DNA of 64,000 bases from Peristeroidobacter agariperforans (GTDB lineage Bacteria > Pseudomonadota > Gammaproteobacteria > Steroidobacterales > Steroidobacteraceae), in NCBI RefSeq assembly GCF_004138335.1, contig NZ_RYFW01000002.1, positions 1,159,501 to 1,223,500 on the forward strand. The letters are read 5' to 3'. The notes beneath the pieces were generated by a model that saw nothing but the letters and a program-made list of their open reading frames with translations, searched no databases and was not told where the DNA came from. Positions 16,366 to 36,348 of this stretch are shown one piece after another. The position numbers and the translations under genes are program-made. Positions within the stretch are counted from its first letter, which is position 1. Every line of letters begins with the position of its first letter.

Positions 16366-17370
16366 GTGCTGCCCCGGACGCGATTGGCTCTGCGGTGGCT
16401 CGCCCACGCGACCGGTCACCTGATCCAGGCACTCTTGGTGATATGGGGAGCGCTTGCGATCTGGTTCTCGCCGGTGCCCTCGGCAGGAGTGCGCCTGGCG
16501 ATGGCGATCGTGTTCGCGGCGCTGGGAATCTGGGCGTTCTGGCTCACTCGCTCGCGGCGCGTCTGGCTGGCTTTTGCTGCGCTGTATCTGGTGCTCTTGA
16601 CCGGCTGGAGTGCAATCAGGCCGCAGATGGATCGTGACTGGCGGGCCGAAGTGGCGGTCTTGCCACGAGCCTATGTTGTCGGAGATCGGGTGCGTCTGGT
16701 CGGCGTGCGCGACTTCGTCTACCGCTCGGTGGATGATTTCACACCCCGTTACCGCGAGCGTGAGGTGCAGCTGTCCCACCTGGTCGGCGTGGACTTCTAC
16801 ATCTCCTATTGGATGCCCGGTCCGATCGGCCACACCTTCCTGAGCTTCACTTTCGAGGACGCCGAGCCGATCAGCATTTCGATCGAGGCGCGCCCCGAGG
16901 CGCACGAGGGGTTTGCGCCGGTGGGCTCGTTGTTCAAGCAGTTCGAGCTGATCTATGTGGTGGGCGAGGAGCGGGACGTTGTCGGCGTGCGCACCAACTA
17001 TCGGGACGAGGATGTATTCCTGTATCGAATCGACACCACACCGGAGAATGCACGACAGCTGTTTCTCATCTACCTGGAGCGCATCAACGAATTGGCGGAG
17101 AGAGCCGAGTTCTATCACTTGCTGAGCAACAACTGCACTTTGAATATCGTGCGCTACGCCAATACCGTGCGTCCGGGTTCCCGCTTCGACATCCGTCACT
17201 ATCTCAACGGCCTGTTCGACAGCTATCTCTATCAGCGCCAGCTGCTCGACGCCTCGATGCCCTTCGAAGACCTGCGCCGCCAGGCCCGGATCAATCAAGC
17301 CGCGCGGGCGGCCGGCGCAGCCGAGGACTTTTCAGAACGCATCCGCGCACAGTTCGGCAAGCGAACGTGA
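16366..17370 (+). CDS. DUF4105 (Lnb N-terminal-like) membrane protein
   Basis: The 334-residue protein starts with three hydrophobic segments (about residues 10-75) and continues with a periplasmic domain matching DUF4105, also called the Lnb N-terminal periplasmic domain. Typical pieces are GHTFLSFTFED, SIEARPE, ELIYVVGEERDVVGVR and the Cys-containing FYHLLSNNCTLNIVRYAN. The SNNCT motif has the look of a papain/NlpC-like Cys nucleophile and matches the Cys-dependent fold of Lnb, which has lipoprotein lyso-form N-acyltransferase activity in some Gram-positives. Here the activity is unknown. GTG 16366 is the start, just after the SHOCT gene. Confidence 0.8.
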   Translation: MLPRTRLALRWLAHATGHLIQALLVIWGALAIWFSPVPSAGVRLAMAIVFAALGIWAFWLTRSRRVWLAFAALYLVLLTGWSAIRPQMDRDWRAEVAVLPRAYVVGDRVRLVGVRDFVYRSVDDFTPRYREREVQLSHLVGVDFYISYWMPGPIGHTFLSFTFEDAEPISISIEARPEAHEGFAPVGSLFKQFELIYVVGEERDVVGVRTNYRDEDVFLYRIDTTPENARQLFLIYLERINELAERAEFYHLLSNNCTLNIVRYANTVRPGSRFDIRHYLNGLFDSYLYQRQLLDASMPFEDLRRQARINQAARAAGAAEDFSERIRAQFGKRT

Positions 17371-30704: not shown

Positions 30705-32033
30705 CTACAAGGCCGGCGCTTTCGCGGGCAGAAGTAGCACGGCCTGCAGTCCGCCGCCGTCGCGGTTGCTCAGTTCTAGCGTTGCGCCGATCGCAATCGC
30801 GAGCTGCTGGGCGATGGCGAGGCCGAGACCCGCGCCGCCGGTTTCACGACTACGTGAGCGCTCCAATCGATAGAACGGTTGGAGCGCGGCTTCGAGCTGA
30901 TCGTCCGGAATGCCCGGCCCACGATCCAGCACGCCGATCGCGATGCCACCGTCGGTGCGCTGGATTGCAATTTCGCCCGCGCCGGCATATTTGATGGCGT
31001 TGTCGAGCAGGTTGCCAATCACGCGACGGAGCGCATGCGGGCGCGTGTTGACGGGCTGATCGACCTTGCCAGTCAACGTCACTTGCTTGCCCATGTCCTG
31101 GTAGTCGTACACGAGGCTGTCCAGGAACGCATTCAGATCGACGTTGACTGGAGACTCGGTCGCACCATGCGAGCTGCGTGCATAAGCGACACCTTCGCGC
31201 ACCAGGTGCTGCATCTCACCTAAATCCTCCAGCAGCTTGGTGCGCTCATTCGAGTCCTGTAACGCTTCGGCCCGAAGTGACATGCGAGTGATCGGCGTCT
31301 GCAGATCGTGGGAAATGGAAGCGAGTATCTGCATGCGTTCACGCAGGTAACTGCCGATTCGGTCCTGCATGGCGTTGAACGCAGCAGCCGCGTGCGCCAC
31401 CTCGGTCGGGCCGCCTTCCTTCAGATATTGGCCGCCGCCGCTTGGGCTGATGGATTCGGCCGCGCGGGCCAGATCGGCGAGCGGACGAGTGACGAGCCGT
31501 ACCGCGATCCACGCGCACGCGAGCAATAGCACGACCTGTGCGCCCAGCACCGTCGGCAACCACTTGGCGATCGGCATCACCGAAGGCGTGACCTCGATGG
31601 TCAGGGGCGAGCCATCGCTGAGCCGAGTGTGCGCCTGAAACCGATATGGATCTTGCGAGGTGCTGTTCGCTGTCACCGGAAACTGGTCGCCCAGCGAGCT
31701 GACGATCATTTGTGTCATCCCGCGGCCGACCTCGTCGAGCGGCTGCTCGTTCACTTCGCCCGGGCCCAGGATGTATCGATACGTGCGTCGTTCCAGGCGG
31801 GGCAGCCAGTCGGCGCGTTGCTGTTCGGGCAGGCGATCGAGCAGCGCGACCGCCGTGCTCACATCGTGCTCCAGGTTACTCCACAGCATGGAGCGGGCGG
31901 ACAGATAGCGCTCGTACAGCATCAAGCTGGCGGACAACGCGTGCGCGACCAGCAGGCCCGTGCACAGGATCAAATACAATCGGGCCGCCATGGTTCGCGG
32001 CACGAGACGTGACATCCACGCGGGCCAGCGCAC
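30705..32033 (-). CDS. Sensor histidine kinase (EnvZ-like, HAMP)
   Basis: The 442-residue kinase has two transmembrane helices (about 18-40 and 155-180) around a periplasmic sensor of some 110 residues, a HAMP linker (TRPLADLARAAESIS), HisKA with ASISHDLQTPITRM and HATPase (IGNLLDNAIKYAG, VLDRGPGIPDD, GAGLGLAIAQQL). The start is GTG 32033 or ATG 32015; the former keeps the gene tightly coupled to the regulator stop at 32036. A 921-codon open frame extending upstream is a shadow of the regulator gene. With the regulator at 32036 it forms a two-component system whose promoter region shares a conserved element with the TlpA-like gene. Confidence 0.88.
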   Translation of the reverse strand: MRWPAWMSRLVPRTMAARLYLILCTGLLVAHALSASLMLYERYLSARSMLWSNLEHDVSTAVALLDRLPEQQRADWLPRLERRTYRYILGPGEVNEQPLDEVGRGMTQMIVSSLGDQFPVTANSTSQDPYRFQAHTRLSDGSPLTIEVTPSVMPIAKWLPTVLGAQVVLLLACAWIAVRLVTRPLADLARAAESISPSGGGQYLKEGGPTEVAHAAAAFNAMQDRIGSYLRERMQILASISHDLQTPITRMSLRAEALQDSNERTKLLEDLGEMQHLVREGVAYARSSHGATESPVNVDLNAFLDSLVYDYQDMGKQVTLTGKVDQPVNTRPHALRRVIGNLLDNAIKYAGAGEIAIQRTDGGIAIGVLDRGPGIPDDQLEAALQPFYRLERSRSRETGGAGLGLAIAQQLAIAIGATLELSNRDGGGLQAVLLLPAKAPAL

Positions 32034-32035
32034 CT

Positions 32036-32776
32036 TCAGGAGTCTCCGCCGATCAGCGTGACGGGCATGCAGAACACATAGCCCTCGCTGCGCACAGTCT
32101 TGATATAACTTTGTTCGCGCGCATGGTCTGCAAGCCGCTGACGCAGACGACTCACCAGCAAGTCGATGGAGCGATCGAAGTGCTCGGCGTCGCGGCCTTG
32201 CGTGAGATTCAGCAGCTGGTCTCGGCTCAGCACGCGCTGGGGATGATCCAGGAATACACGCAGCAATCGAAACTCGGCGCCGCTGAGTGCGACGACTGTG
32301 TCGTTGCGATCGAGCAAGTGGCGGGAAGTCGTGTCGAGACGCCAGTTGCCGAACGCGATCAATCGACTCGCCTCGGTGATCTGCAGGTTCGGCGGCAGCA
32401 TGCGCGTACGACGGAGCACGGCTTTGATCCGGGCCAACAGCTCGCGCGCGGAGAAGGGCTTGGTCACGTAGTCGTCCGCGCCCATTTCGAGGCCGACGAT
32501 CCGATCCGTTTCTTCGTCGCGCGCCGTCAGCATCACGACCGGGATCGAACGGTGCTTGCTCTCGCGCAGTTGCCGGCACAACACCAGGCCGTCGTCGCCC
32601 GGCATCATCACGTCGAGCACGATCAGATCGATGCTGTTGGTCTCCAGCATCGCCTTCATTTCGCGGCCGTTGTTGGCGACCGAAGCGCGCAGACCGTTCT
32701 TGGTCAGGTGCTTCGCCACCATCTCCCGGATCTCGCGGTCGTCGTCGACGACCAGAATATGATCGATAGGGTCCAC
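32036..32776 (-). CDS. OmpR-family response regulator
   Basis: The 246-residue protein has a receiver (residues 5-120: [11 protein letters not shown], phospho-acceptor Asp in [13 protein letters not shown], Lys in VTKPFSA) and a winged-helix DNA-binding domain ([47 protein letters not shown]). GTG 32776 follows gaggacgac at good spacing; the frame continues upstream without motif. The kinase gene follows directly. OmpR regulators bind direct repeats about 10 bp apart, and two TGTATC-type half-sites exactly 10 bp apart occur in its own promoter region and before the TlpA-like gene, so autoregulation and control of that gene are likely. Confidence 0.92.
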
Positions 32777-32846: not shown

Positions 32847-32899
32847 TTTTGTAAGCAAATCCGGGGATTTTTCGCCCGGATACAGTTCGATACACACGG
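32847..32899 (-). promoter_or_regulatory. Conserved element A: TTTTGTAAGC-N22-GATACA-N4-GATACA
   Basis: TTTTGTAAGC at 32847-32856 is followed by GATACA at 32879-32884 and again at 32889-32894 (10-bp period). The gene-sense reading is TGTATC repeats, then GCTTACAAAA, 70 nt before the regulator start. The same three blocks with identical spacing are at 36349-36401. A further GATACA is at 32932. It lies between the divergent regulator and DoxX genes. Confidence 0.6.
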
Positions 32900-32987
32900 C
32901 CCGGCAACCGGCCGGTCGGCGAAACGATCCGGATACATGCGTCGCGTTGAATCGCCGTCCAATGCAGCAGCAGAAGAGGCCGCGACG

Positions 32988-33536
32988 ATGTCTTTGAAGT
33001 GGGCGTCCATCCCGATGGACCGTTTGAACGGGGTGGGAGAGTGGCTCGGTCCCCTGGGCTTGCGCGTGTTGCTGGCGTGGGAGTTCTACGAGTCCGGACT
33101 CGAGAAGCTGCACGGCGAGAACTGGTTCGCCGAGCTGGCCGGTAAGTTTCCGCCGCCGTTCTCGCTGCTGAGCCCGGACGTGAATTGGGCGCTCGCGACG
33201 TGGCTCGAGCTGCTCGGCAGCCTCGCGCTGCTGGTGGGACTCGGCACTCGTTTCTTTGCCGTGGCGCTGTCGGTGCTGACTGTCGTAGCGATCGCAGCTG
33301 TGCACTGGCCGGCGGAATGGTCGACCGTGGCCGAGTTGTGGCAGGGCTACTCGATTACCGATCACGGCTTCGGCAACTACAAGCTGCCGCTCATCTACCT
33401 GGTGATGTTGCTGCCGCTGATTCTGCAGGGCGCCGGCCGCGCGAGCCTGGATCACCTCCTCTGGCGACACCTTCGATCCTCCGCCCCAGGGCGGTCTCTC
33501 AACCCGCGTGGCACGCCACGTCTACTTCCGGAGTAA
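32988..33536 (+). CDS. DoxX-family membrane protein
   Basis: The 182-residue protein has four hydrophobic segments and the DoxX pattern ([41 protein letters not shown]). DoxX members are quinone-related or thiol-redox membrane proteins. In Haemophilus-type hvf loci a DoxX gene accompanies the thio-oxazole RiPP genes, and here the RiPP precursor begins only 4 bases after this stop. ATG 32988 follows agagg. As first gene of the operon it is divergent to the OmpR-family regulator. An electron-transfer or export role in metal handling is plausible but inferred from context. Confidence 0.82.
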
Positions 33537-33540
33537 AGCT

Positions 33541-34020
33541 ATGTCCAAAAATTCATCGTCCAACAAGGCCGGCCTCGGCGCCGTCGGCATCGCGCTCACC
33601 GGCGGCATGCTGCTCGCCAGTTCGGCGTTCGCTGCTCAGCCGATGGCCCACGGCTATCTGTTGACTGCCGCTCCGACCTCCAAGACTGCCGAAGGCAAGT
33701 GCGGTGAAGGCAAGTGTGGCGGGTCCAAGGCTGCCGCCAAGACTGCCGAAGGCAAATGCGGCGAGGGCAAATGTGGCGAAGGCAAGTGCGGCGACGAGTC
33801 GTTCGCCAGGACCGACGCCAACAACGACGGCAAGGTATCGAAGGCCGAATTCCTGGCCGTGGCGCCTGAGCGCGAGGCGGCGTTCGTCAAGATCGACACC
33901 GACAAGAATGGCTTCATCAGCCAGGCCGAAGCTTACAAGTTCCTGCGCTCGGTCTACGAAGCGAACGGCAAGGAGATGCCAGCGGACAAGTTCAGCATTG
34001 CCGCTGTGCTCGGCAAGTAA
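33541..34020 (+). CDS. HvfA-like EGKCG-repeat RiPP precursor fused to two EF-hands
   Basis: The 159-residue protein has a signal peptide (1-32, ending SSAFAA) and five EGKCG units (residues 51-55, 56-60, 70-74, 75-79, 80-84). These are the known substrate of MNIO/HvfC enzymes, which turn the Cys into copper-binding thio-oxazole (or oxazolone-thioamide) groups. The repeats come as two blocks sharing KTAEGKCGEGKCG, so they were duplicated. Unusually the C-terminal half holds two canonical EF-hand loops: Asp92-to-Glu103 and Asp119-to-Glu130, with calcium ligands at all consensus positions. The start has ggag upstream. MNIO and HvfC genes follow. The EF-hand fusion suggests calcium or another cation adds to copper binding. 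Confidence 0.85.
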   Translation: MSKNSSSNKAGLGAVGIALTGGMLLASSAFAAQPMAHGYLLTAAPTSKTAEGKCGEGKCGGSKAAAKTAEGKCGEGKCGEGKCGDESFARTDANNDGKVSKAEFLAVAPEREAAFVKIDTDKNGFISQAEAYKFLRSVYEANGKEMPADKFSIAAVLGK

Positions 34021-34032
34021 CAGCTGATTGAC

Positions 34033-34060
34033 GGCGCGTCCCGCGATGGCGGGGCGCGCC
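34033..34060 (+). promoter_or_regulatory. Strong hairpin between precursor and MNIO genes
   Basis: GGCGCGTCCCGC (34033-34044) pairs with GCGGGGCGCGCC (34049-34060) over 12 positions with one G-U wobble and a 4-nt loop. It starts 13 nt after the precursor stop and ends 18 nt before the MNIO GTG. No T-run follows. It is a likely RNA stabiliser or partial attenuator giving more precursor than enzyme mRNA. Confidence 0.6.
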
Positions 34061-34078
34061 CGTCGCGGAGTAGCGTTT

Positions 34079-34912
34079 GTGACCAAGGACATCACCCCGA
34101 CCTCGGCCGGACTCGGGCTGCGTCGGAGTCTGCTGCCTGAGCTGCAACAGATGCCGGACGACGCCGTGGATTTTCTGGAGTGCGCGCCGGACAACTGGAT
34201 CGGTGTCGGCGGCCATTTCGGTGCGCGTCTCGATGAACTGTCGAGCCGGTTTCCTTTGAGCTGTCATGGATTGTCGTTGTCGCTCGCAGGGCCCGAGCCG
34301 CTCGACATGCAGCTGCTGGCGCGCACCCGTGAATTTCTCGACCGGCACAAGGTGACACTCTATAGCGAGCACCTGAGTTACTGCTCCGATGACGGACATC
34401 TGTATGACTTGATGCCAGTGCCGTTTACGGAGGAGGCGATCAAGCACGTCGCCGGTCGCATTCGTCAGGCGCAGGACGTACTAGGCCGGCGGATCGCGGT
34501 GGAAAACATTTCCTATTACGCCGCGCCGTATCGGGCGTTGAGCGAGGTCGAGTTCGTCACGGCCGTGCTCGAAGAGGCGGATTGCGATCTGCTGCTCGAC
34601 GTGAACAACTTGTTCGTCAATGCCTGCAATCACGCTTACAGCGCGCGTGACTTTCTCGGCCAGTTGCCCCGCGAGCGCGTTGTCTCGTTCCACGTCGCTG
34701 GTCACCACGACGAGGCGCCCGATCTCAAGGTCGATACGCATGGTGCGACCGTGAAAGAAGGGGTGTGGTCGCTGCTGGCGGTGGCGTACAAACGCTTCGG
34801 CGTGCGCCCGACGCTGCTCGAGCGCGATTTCAACTTTCCGCCGCTCCCTGAGTTGTTGAGGGAAGTAGCGCGGATCAAGACTCTGCAGCGGGCGCTGACG
34901 CACGATGGCTAA
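34079..34912 (+). CDS. hvfB: MNIO (DUF692) RiPP-modifying enzyme, HvfB-like
   Basis: The 277-residue protein is a multinuclear non-heme iron oxidase (DUF692, TIM-barrel). Metal-ligand segments of the family are visible in order: [18 protein letters not shown] (His), [15 protein letters not shown] (Glu), [16 protein letters not shown] (Asp, Asn), SFHVAGHH (two His) and DTHG. With an HvfC partner such enzymes oxidise Cys of EGKCG repeats. GTG 34079 has ggag 8 nt ahead, and residues after it ([12 protein letters not shown]) begin the family as usual; an upstream frame to 34028 passes through the hairpin. The 3' end overlaps the HvfC gene by 8 bp. Confidence 0.92.
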
Positions 34913-35690
34913 TACGCTTCGAGAGCAGCAGTTTGCTTTCGCGCGTCACCTGCGCGATCCCGATCATCATCCCAAGCCGGCGGGGATCGAGGACCGTCGG
35001 ATGAAGGTGTATCGCGACCTGTTCTTCAACTCCCTGCAGTCGCAGCTGGCGAACGGATTTCCAGTCATTAGTCAGACGCTGGAGCGCGAGGTCTGGCTGA
35101 AACTCGTCCGTGACTTCTATGCGGACTATCGTTCGCAGACGCCGCTGTTCACGCAGATCGCTGGCGAGTTCGTCAGCTACCTGCAGACGCGTGGTGACGA
35201 TCCGGAGTGGCTGGCGGAGCTGGCGCATTACGAATGGATGGAAACCAAGCTGCATCTTTCCGATGCGTGTGCGCCGGACCATGATCCCGACGGCGATCTC
35301 ATCGAAGAGGTCCCCGTGCTATCTCCGCTCGCCATGCCGCTGGCCTACCGCTGGGCAGTCGCTCACATCGGCCCTGAGTCGGTGCCGACGACGGTTCCGG
35401 AACAGCCTACCTTGTTGCTGTTGCATCGGAGCGCAGATCATCGCGTTCGGTTTCTGCAGCTCTCCGTGGTGACTTATCGATTGCTGGTGTCGCTGTCATC
35501 GAACCCGTGGACCGGCAGGAAACATCTGGCTGTGCTTGCTGCTGAGGCTGGCCTTCCCACGGACGCACTGCTGGAGCAGGGGTGGGACATGCTCGAGCAG
35601 CTGCGCCGCGATGGCATCGTGCTAGGCGTTCAACCGGCGTCGAGCCCTTGTCCGTCGAGGGGACACGTCCGTGTGCGCCACCCGCTGTAG
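34905..35690 (+). CDS. hvfC: HvfC-like (DUF2063) partner protein
   Basis: The 261-residue protein matches the DUF2063 family (N-terminal domain about 5-100: [57 protein letters not shown]) with a C-terminal helical part. Families named putative DNA-binding are now known as recognition partners of MNIO enzymes: they hold the precursor peptide. It overlaps the hvfB 3' end by 8 bp, the usual coupling of these genes. In the cluster it would deliver the EGKCG-EF-hand precursor to HvfB. The gene is full-length; no further gene follows in the operon. Confidence 0.88.
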
Positions 35691-35735: not shown

Positions 35736-36275
35736 TCAGCGATTGGCTAGTAGTTGCTGAATCCGAGCTTCCGTTTCGGCGTAGCTGCCCTCGCCGTAGT
35801 GGCGGTACACGATGCGGCCTTCAGCATCGATCAGGTACAGCGCCGGCCAGAAGCGGTTGCCGTAGGCATCCCAGGTCCTGTAATCGTTGTCGAGCGCGAT
35901 CGGGTACTCGAGGCCGAAGCGCTTGACGGTCTGCTGCACATTCGCGGGGACTTTCTCGTGCTCGTACTCGGGTGTGTGCACGCCGACGACCGTCAGGCCT
36001 CGATCCCGATAACGCGCGTGCCACTCCTTGATGTGCGGCATGACGTGGATGCAGTTGATGCAGTCTCGCGTCCAGAACTCGACGAGCACCACCGAGCCGC
36101 GTAGCTCTGACAACGTCAGCGGCTCACTGTTGATCCATTGCTTGATGCCTTTGAACTCCGGAGCCAACGGCGCCGCTGCGTGGTTCGTCGGCGGAATGGG
36201 TTCGGCAGACGTGTCACCGGCAGTGCACGCGGCCGAGAGCAGGCACATGGACAAGGCCACAACTTGTTTCAACAT
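35736..36275 (-). CDS. TlpA-like thioredoxin lipoprotein
   Basis: The 179-residue protein has a lipoprotein signal peptide (lipobox LSAAC at about residue 17) and a thioredoxin-fold domain with redox motif CINC in FWTRDCINCIHVMP. The end region WPALYLIDAEGRIVYRH has the cis-Pro. It resembles DipZ/TlpA periplasmic reductases. ATG 36275 follows gaggtcgatc. It is convergent to the hvf operon (46-base gap) and its promoter region contains conserved element B, which matches the element before the two-component operon. This suggests a co-regulated role in keeping the EGKCG Cys or copper sites reduced. Confidence 0.85.
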   Translation of the reverse strand: MLKQVVALSMCLLSAACTAGDTSAEPIPPTNHAAAPLAPEFKGIKQWINSEPLTLSELRGSVVLVEFWTRDCINCIHVMPHIKEWHARYRDRGLTVVGVHTPEYEHEKVPANVQQTVKRFGLEYPIALDNDYRTWDAYGNRFWPALYLIDAEGRIVYRHYGEGSYAETEARIQQLLANR

Positions 36276-36348
36276 GATCGACCTCACCAGGAAGAACCGC
36301 GACAGTGTTCTCCCAAGCTATGGCCAAAGCATTTCGTGACAAGCGCGG

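Follow-up and report, generated by a model that had tools for sequence, protein, structure and literature searches.

An EfhP-type operon in Peristeroidobacter agariperforans that joins EGKCG repeats to an EF-hand pair beside a BfmRS-like two-component system

Described EGKCG precursors and the BfmR regulon

EfhP (PA4107), a Ca2+ sensor of Pseudomonas aeruginosa, has been known since 2014 as a protein with two EF-hands whose gene is predicted to lie in an operon with DUF692 and DUF2063 genes (PMC4053335). It binds Ca2+ with a Kd of 13.7 uM (PMC9132961), and the four EGKCG repeats that it also carries were noted in 2024, when Fe sensing was proposed for them (PMC11559002). Work on peptide maturation has established that HvfABC and FonABC make 5-thiooxazoles on EGKCG repeats and that Cu is bound by an EGKCG product (PMC13097082). 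Leprevost et al. 2025 (PMC12452194) describe a class termed Buf_EGKC|EF-hand_5, give WP_187711723.1 as an example and, citing EfhP, suggest a role for the class in copper and Ca2+ homeostasis.

The regulation of efhP is also described. In the P. aeruginosa gene neighbourhood, bfmR and bfmS come first, and after them a ferric-reductase-like gene, a DoxX gene and PA4105-PA4107 (PMC4918941); BfmR binds the promoters of bfmR, PA4103 and PA4107 (PMC4148453), and efhP is described as the gene most activated by BfmR, for which a 14-bp motif, TACAA-N3-GATACA, was published (PMC8025907). EfhP, the best-studied member of the class, has so far been treated as a calcium protein and figures in the RiPP literature only as a likely chimaera; a literature search of titles and abstract openings returned no report on its modified state. 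If EfhP-type proteins are viewed as substrates of an MNIO and as controlled by a BfmR-like regulator, the role of EfhP becomes testable by mass spectrometry.

The operon and its precursor

The stretch of DNA analysed here (the window) comprises 64,000 nucleotides of the soil bacterium Peristeroidobacter agariperforans (GCF_004138335.1, contig NZ_RYFW01000002.1, positions 1,159,501 to 1,223,500), whose genome of 7.65 Mb holds one EGKCG locus and two MNIO genes. The features of the locus are collected in Table 1. A first-pass annotation of the same DNA had described a precursor in which two canonical EF-hand loops come after five EGKCG repeats, with a DoxX gene 4 bases ahead of it and HvfB-like and HvfC-like genes behind it, and had called the biosynthetic set complete. 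The parts, their order, their coordinates and the residue numbers are exact by open reading frame and pattern, the last base of hvfX is 33536 and the precursor starts with the ATG at 33541, and the NCBIfam matches for HvfX, HvfB and HvfC exceed their cut-offs, such that the set HvfX-A-B-C is indeed complete. The start of hvfX is uncertain, with ATG candidates at 32937, 32988 and 33015, and the first 8 bases of hvfC lie within hvfB. Solved-structure relatives are 3bww for HvfB (E 1e-73) and 3dee for HvfC. A Cys-rich KC-repeat precursor, an MNIO and a DUF2063 partner thus stand together, which is how a captophorin / MNIO-PME1 gene cluster is defined in PMC13097082.

Table 1 Features of the locus, in coordinates of the window
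Feature	Coordinates	Strand	Remarks
EnvZ/CpxA-like sensor histidine kinase	30705..32015	-	BfmS-like by synteny
OmpR/PhoB-family response regulator	32036..32776	-	Response_reg and Trans_reg_C; GTG start inferred
Candidate BfmR box TACAGTTCGATACA	32881..32894	+	One mismatch to TACAA-N3-GATACA (PMC8025907)
hvfX, HvfX/DoxX-family membrane protein	32988..33536	+	PF07681 77.8 bits; NF050144 146.2, cut-off 80
EfhP/HvfA-type precursor	33541..34020	+	159 aa; repeats and EF-hand pair, profile matches
hvfB, HvfB-family MNIO maturase	34079..34912	+	GTG start; PF05114 334.1 bits; NF003818 418, cut-off 360
hvfC, HvfC-family partner (DUF2063 and NGO1945_C)	34905..35690	+	NF050145 284.8 bits, cut-off 142
TlpA/ResA-like thioredoxin-fold protein	35736..36287	-	Convergent with hvfC

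The precursor begins with a hydrophobic stretch ending in AFA that, judged by eye, appears signal-peptide-like. The EGKCG block (residues 51-84) follows, with its five motifs at residues 51-55, 56-60, 70-74, 75-79 and 80-84, and then the EF-hand pair, in which both loop 1 (DANNDGKVSKAE, residues 92-103) and loop 2 (DTDKNGFISQAE, residues 119-130) are canonical by the EF-hand pattern. Profile matches agree with this reading: the repeats match the HvfA-family domain NF050137 at 43.3 bits (cut-off 19.5), and two stretches each match Pfam EF-hand_1 (38.6 bits, cut-off 25.4), EF-hand_5 (35.7, cut-off 25.9) and EF-hand_6 (35.4, cut-off 25). EF-hand_7 (28.5 versus 30), EF-hand_8 (18.7 versus 28) and the narrower HvfA equivalog NF050188 (37.6 versus 95) stay below their cut-offs. 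Both parts of the precursor are under purifying selection, since dN/dS relative to the orthologue of Steroidobacter agaridevorans is 0.097 for the whole precursor and 0.113 for the EF part alone. The fusion is confirmed to be neither chance nor artefact.

The AlphaFold2 model of the precursor is poor as a whole (mean pLDDT 53.3, pTM 0.34); within it, residues 98-141 adopt a helix-loop-strand-helix EF-hand pattern, mostly at a pLDDT of about 70-80, and the repeats fall below 50 and are without secondary structure. Searching solved structures with the precursor returned only eukaryotic-type and other EF-hand proteins (21 sequences, E 2.9e-5 or weaker), and these matches add nothing past the EF-hand fold. 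Two other identities were considered for the EF-hand part. Lanmodulin EF loops carry a proline at position 2. The window loops are without it and the precursor scores 19.5 bits against NF053806 (cut-off 135), so lanmodulin-like lanthanide binding was rejected, as was identity with the XopAW effector (26.7 bits versus a cut-off of 120, in a match confined to the EF-hand part).

Two further observations concern a gene next to this operon and the second MNIO of the genome. Relatives of the TlpA/ResA-like protein lie near an MNIO in 15 of the best 80 of 563 loci (defined below), and whether the gene is part of the precursor system is uncertain. The second MNIO cluster of the genome (L002 1112-2319, contig C9 near 402717) has its MNIO behind an 88-aa BufA2-family precursor (80.9 bits, cut-off 60).

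Related loci, regulator and candidate box

Confirmed relatives of the window MNIO number 563, and the best 80 of these 563 loci were used for a census of precursor types. The EfhP type, in which the repeats precede the EF pair, accounts for 37 loci, and a sandwich order of repeat, EF pair and repeat for 29, a figure that counts L005 as a sandwich, which has one fitting loop only and an EfhP-type setting. A single locus (L050) places the EF pair before one EGKCG motif, 10 precursors are without EF loops, and no precursor was seen in three loci (L020, L048 and L070), of which L048 and L070 have a contig end close upstream. In all, 67 of these 80 loci, whose HvfB proteins are the closest to that of the window among the 563, encode an EF-hand/EGKCG precursor. 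The sandwich order, which was not found in the accessible part of PMC12452194, shows that the arrangement of EF-hands and EGKCG repeats within a precursor is not always the same. Apart from the census, a locus from a distant family of the class (L106) encodes a sandwich precursor in which nine EGKCG-like motifs were counted, and in the tree the adjoining MNIO is placed outside the nearest-relative set. In L054, a single MNIO is preceded by two tandem EF-hand/EGKCG precursor frames (3943 and 4505). In L020 (4098-5001), from Pseudomonas wayambapalatensis, hvfB, hvfC and hvfX are all retained along with the two-component genes and three matches to the box, and an EGKCG precursor frame was not seen in this locus.

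How constant is the EF-hand pair within the EfhP type? Loop 2 fits the EF pattern in all 37 loci and loop 1 in 26, and because loop 1 is off pattern in the other 11, Ca2+ may not be bound by both loops in every locus, as far as the pattern can predict. In an alignment that took in 28 of the 38 EfhP-type sequences (window included), cysteines 54, 59, 78 and 83 are invariant in all 28 rows, and so are the EF ligands D92, D96, S100, E103, D119 and E130.

The distribution of the operon within its own family is patchy. The repeat domain occurs in 9 of 200 family genomes searched (window genome included), two of which belong to the genus of the window, and it has no match in at least 12 other genomes of that genus; no EF loop was found by pattern in the loci from the seven repeat-bearing family genomes of other genera. 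A class-wide draw found the repeat in 98 of 369 genomes, and among the 30 class-wide loci listed, EF loops occur in two, the window and L106. The window MNIO is 92% identical to that of S. agaridevorans, and in a maximum-likelihood tree computed by a quick search from 103 HvfB proteins (SH-aLRT support only) the window groups with the S. agaridevorans locus (L004) and L116 with a support of 100. This group is nested, with a support of 95, in a set of 35 rows from Pseudomonas, Rheinheimera, Lysobacter and Steroidobacter, 32 of which are labelled EfhP type; L116 is itself EfhP type, though labelled 'other' in the tree. EfhP-type rows outside the set come from Stenotrophomonas (four) and Pseudomonas (two). 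Because of this placement and the patchy distribution, horizontal gain of the operon by Steroidobacter is likely.

The precursor operon diverges from the regulator and kinase genes, with 211 bp between the inferred starts. By synteny, the regulator resembles BfmR and the kinase BfmS. Between the window regulator and its counterparts in EfhP-type loci of other genera with the same synteny, identity is 75-83%. By tblastn, such a regulator and such a kinase were each found in 30 of the best 80 of 563 loci. Split by precursor class, and with identity thresholds of 70% for the regulator or 50% for the kinase, the two-component pair marks 27 of 37 EfhP-type loci, one of 29 sandwich loci, the EF-first locus not at all (0/1), none of the 10 EF-less loci and one of the three without a precursor; within the locus DNA, no such system was seen in 10 of the 37 EfhP-type loci.

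Inside the shared divergent promoter lies the candidate BfmR box, found with the motif of PMC8025907 unchanged. Together with the two preceding bases it forms a 10-bp direct repeat, GATACA-N4-GATACA, and it is kept in S. agaridevorans. A third GATACA half-site (32932-32937), likewise conserved there, overlaps the ATG at 32937. Across the 80 loci, which are related and unequal in length such that the matches are not independent events, the motif has 56 matches in 35 loci. Five Markov-1 replicates yielded 5, 1, 1, 2 and 5 matches, and 200 motifs with permuted letters all stayed below 56 (mean 2.7, largest 36). The box is present in 30 of 37 EfhP-type loci (absent from seven), one of 29 sandwich loci (L005), 0/1 EF-first, 2/10 EF-less and 2/3 precursor-less loci. 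The 48 matches in EfhP-type loci fall upstream of hvfX (17), upstream of hvfA (16), just after the kinase gene (11) and elsewhere (four).

Counts on a larger scale show no excess. With up to 2 mismatches the window has 2 matches versus 3.2 expected, and in the 7.65 Mb of the genome the motif is not commoner than its reversed control (24 versus 27 matches). For this reason, the case for the candidate box would have to be made solely from its place and its recurrence across loci; as to place, simple arithmetic at the genome's own rate gives about 0.0007 expected matches in the 211-bp promoter. The shorter published motif GATACAnnGC is absent from the promoter, its sole match in the window being at 16579. 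Exact matches to the BfmR box occur elsewhere in the genome at C13 231133-231146 and C14 303774-303787. Since the box recurs in several genera, the link of this envelope regulator to a copper/calcium peptide appears to be old and selected. The box was not found in the accessible part of PMC12452194, and this signature common to EfhP-type loci of several genera, like the sandwich order, seems worth following as an extension of what is described.

Proposed mechanism, alternatives and comparison with known systems

We consider it probable that the locus belongs to the MNIO/HvfABC (captophorin, EGKCG) systems as an operon of the EfhP type, in which BfmR-like induction, thiooxazole formation on the repeats, Sec export and binding of Cu(I) and Ca2+ follow one another. 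The rationale for the EfhP-type assignment is that matches to HvfX, HvfB, HvfC, the repeat domain and EF-hands exceed their cut-offs and that the same architecture occurs in 37 of the 80 loci. As the sequence and the work in P. aeruginosa would predict, an active BfmRS-like system would place its regulator on the box at 32881-32894 and switch on hvfX-hvfA-hvfB-hvfC. By analogy with HvfABC and FonABC, HvfB with HvfC would then act in the cytoplasm and turn the cysteine of each of the five EGKCG motifs into a 5-thiooxazole, after which the precursor would be exported through Sec. Once it is periplasmic, its repeats would bind Cu(I) and buffer copper and its EF-hand pair, as in EfhP, would bind Ca2+; HvfX may serve as a membrane helper.

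An alternative hypothesis is that sensing Ca2+ in the periplasm is the main function of the protein, that its cysteine repeats are a secondary element for redox or iron sensing, and that copper buffering is not its job. EfhP does bind Ca2+ and has Ca2+-dependent phenotypes (PMC4053335, PMC9132961), Fe sensing and not copper was proposed for its repeats (PMC11559002), and a promoter response to Ca2+ and Fe is published. However, the repeats and hvfB/hvfC are kept together with EF-hands in 67 of the 80 loci, and EGKCG repeats without EF-hands stand beside the same enzymes in 10 of the 80. The repeat and not the EF pair is thus the constant part, and we regard the sensor explanation as unlikely, with a modest share of the probability. 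The departure of loop 1 from the EF pattern in 11 of the 37 EfhP-type loci could instead mean that the EF-hands no longer bind metal and that their fold only caps the repeat block or serves as its handle. Against this, loop 2 fits in all 37, the ligand columns are invariant in all 28 aligned rows, the window protein has two canonical loops and EfhP itself binds Ca2+ (PMC9132961), which makes loss of metal binding highly improbable. The first-pass annotation took the fusion for a two-metal RiPP of a kind not yet described, unless such fusions were already common and described among HvfA precursors; the class is described in PMC12452194, and EfhP (PA4107) represents it. Our literature search found no report for this organism, and the claim of an undescribed kind nevertheless has next to no probability.

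We also put forward a more speculative proposal, which goes beyond the EfhP-type operon set out above and which we think rather improbable. The Kd of 13.7 uM reported for EfhP falls between bacterial cytosolic and periplasmic Ca2+ levels, which suggests that the EF pair might be a Ca2+ folding switch for RiPP export. The pair would have been joined to EGKCG repeats in more than one way, in the EfhP type and in the sandwich. It would be unfolded at cytosolic Ca2+, so that HvfB/HvfC and Sec would have access to the precursor, and would fold in the Ca2+-rich periplasm, where the protein would be held and copper binding by the thiooxazole block set. A BfmR-like envelope-stress regulon would have taken in the EfhP type before, or in the course of, its spread among Pseudomonas, Rheinheimera, Lysobacter, Stenotrophomonas and Steroidobacter. 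If this were true, the published Ca2+ and Fe phenotypes of EfhP would partly be those of a modified copper peptide.

Among known systems, the operon shares EGKCG repeats and HvfB- and HvfC-family enzymes with the captophorins of PMC13097082, namely HvfA/oxazolin, fontiphorin and gonophorin. It differs from them in its EF-hands, a term with 0 occurrences in the accessible part of that paper, and in that the window precursor lies under the HvfA equivalog cut-off. EfhP/PA4107 is closer, having EGKCG repeats and two EF-hands, DUF692 and DUF2063 genes, and a DoxX gene and BfmRS nearby; however, EfhP of P. aeruginosa has four repeats (PMC11559002) where the window precursor has five, and in P. aeruginosa DoxX and the ferric-reductase-like protein are encoded in an operon of their own, whereas the DoxX gene of the window lies 4 bases upstream of the precursor. 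The closest likeness is to the Buf_EGKC|EF-hand_5 class of PMC12452194, which has a short EGKCG domain followed by two EF-hands, accompanied by MNIO, DUF2063 and DoxX genes. The window has the same EGKCG repeats ahead of two EF-hands, with MNIO and DUF2063 genes adjoining, and shows no difference of kind from the class as described in the accessible text. The fusion is a known kind, and the window protein is a further member of it.
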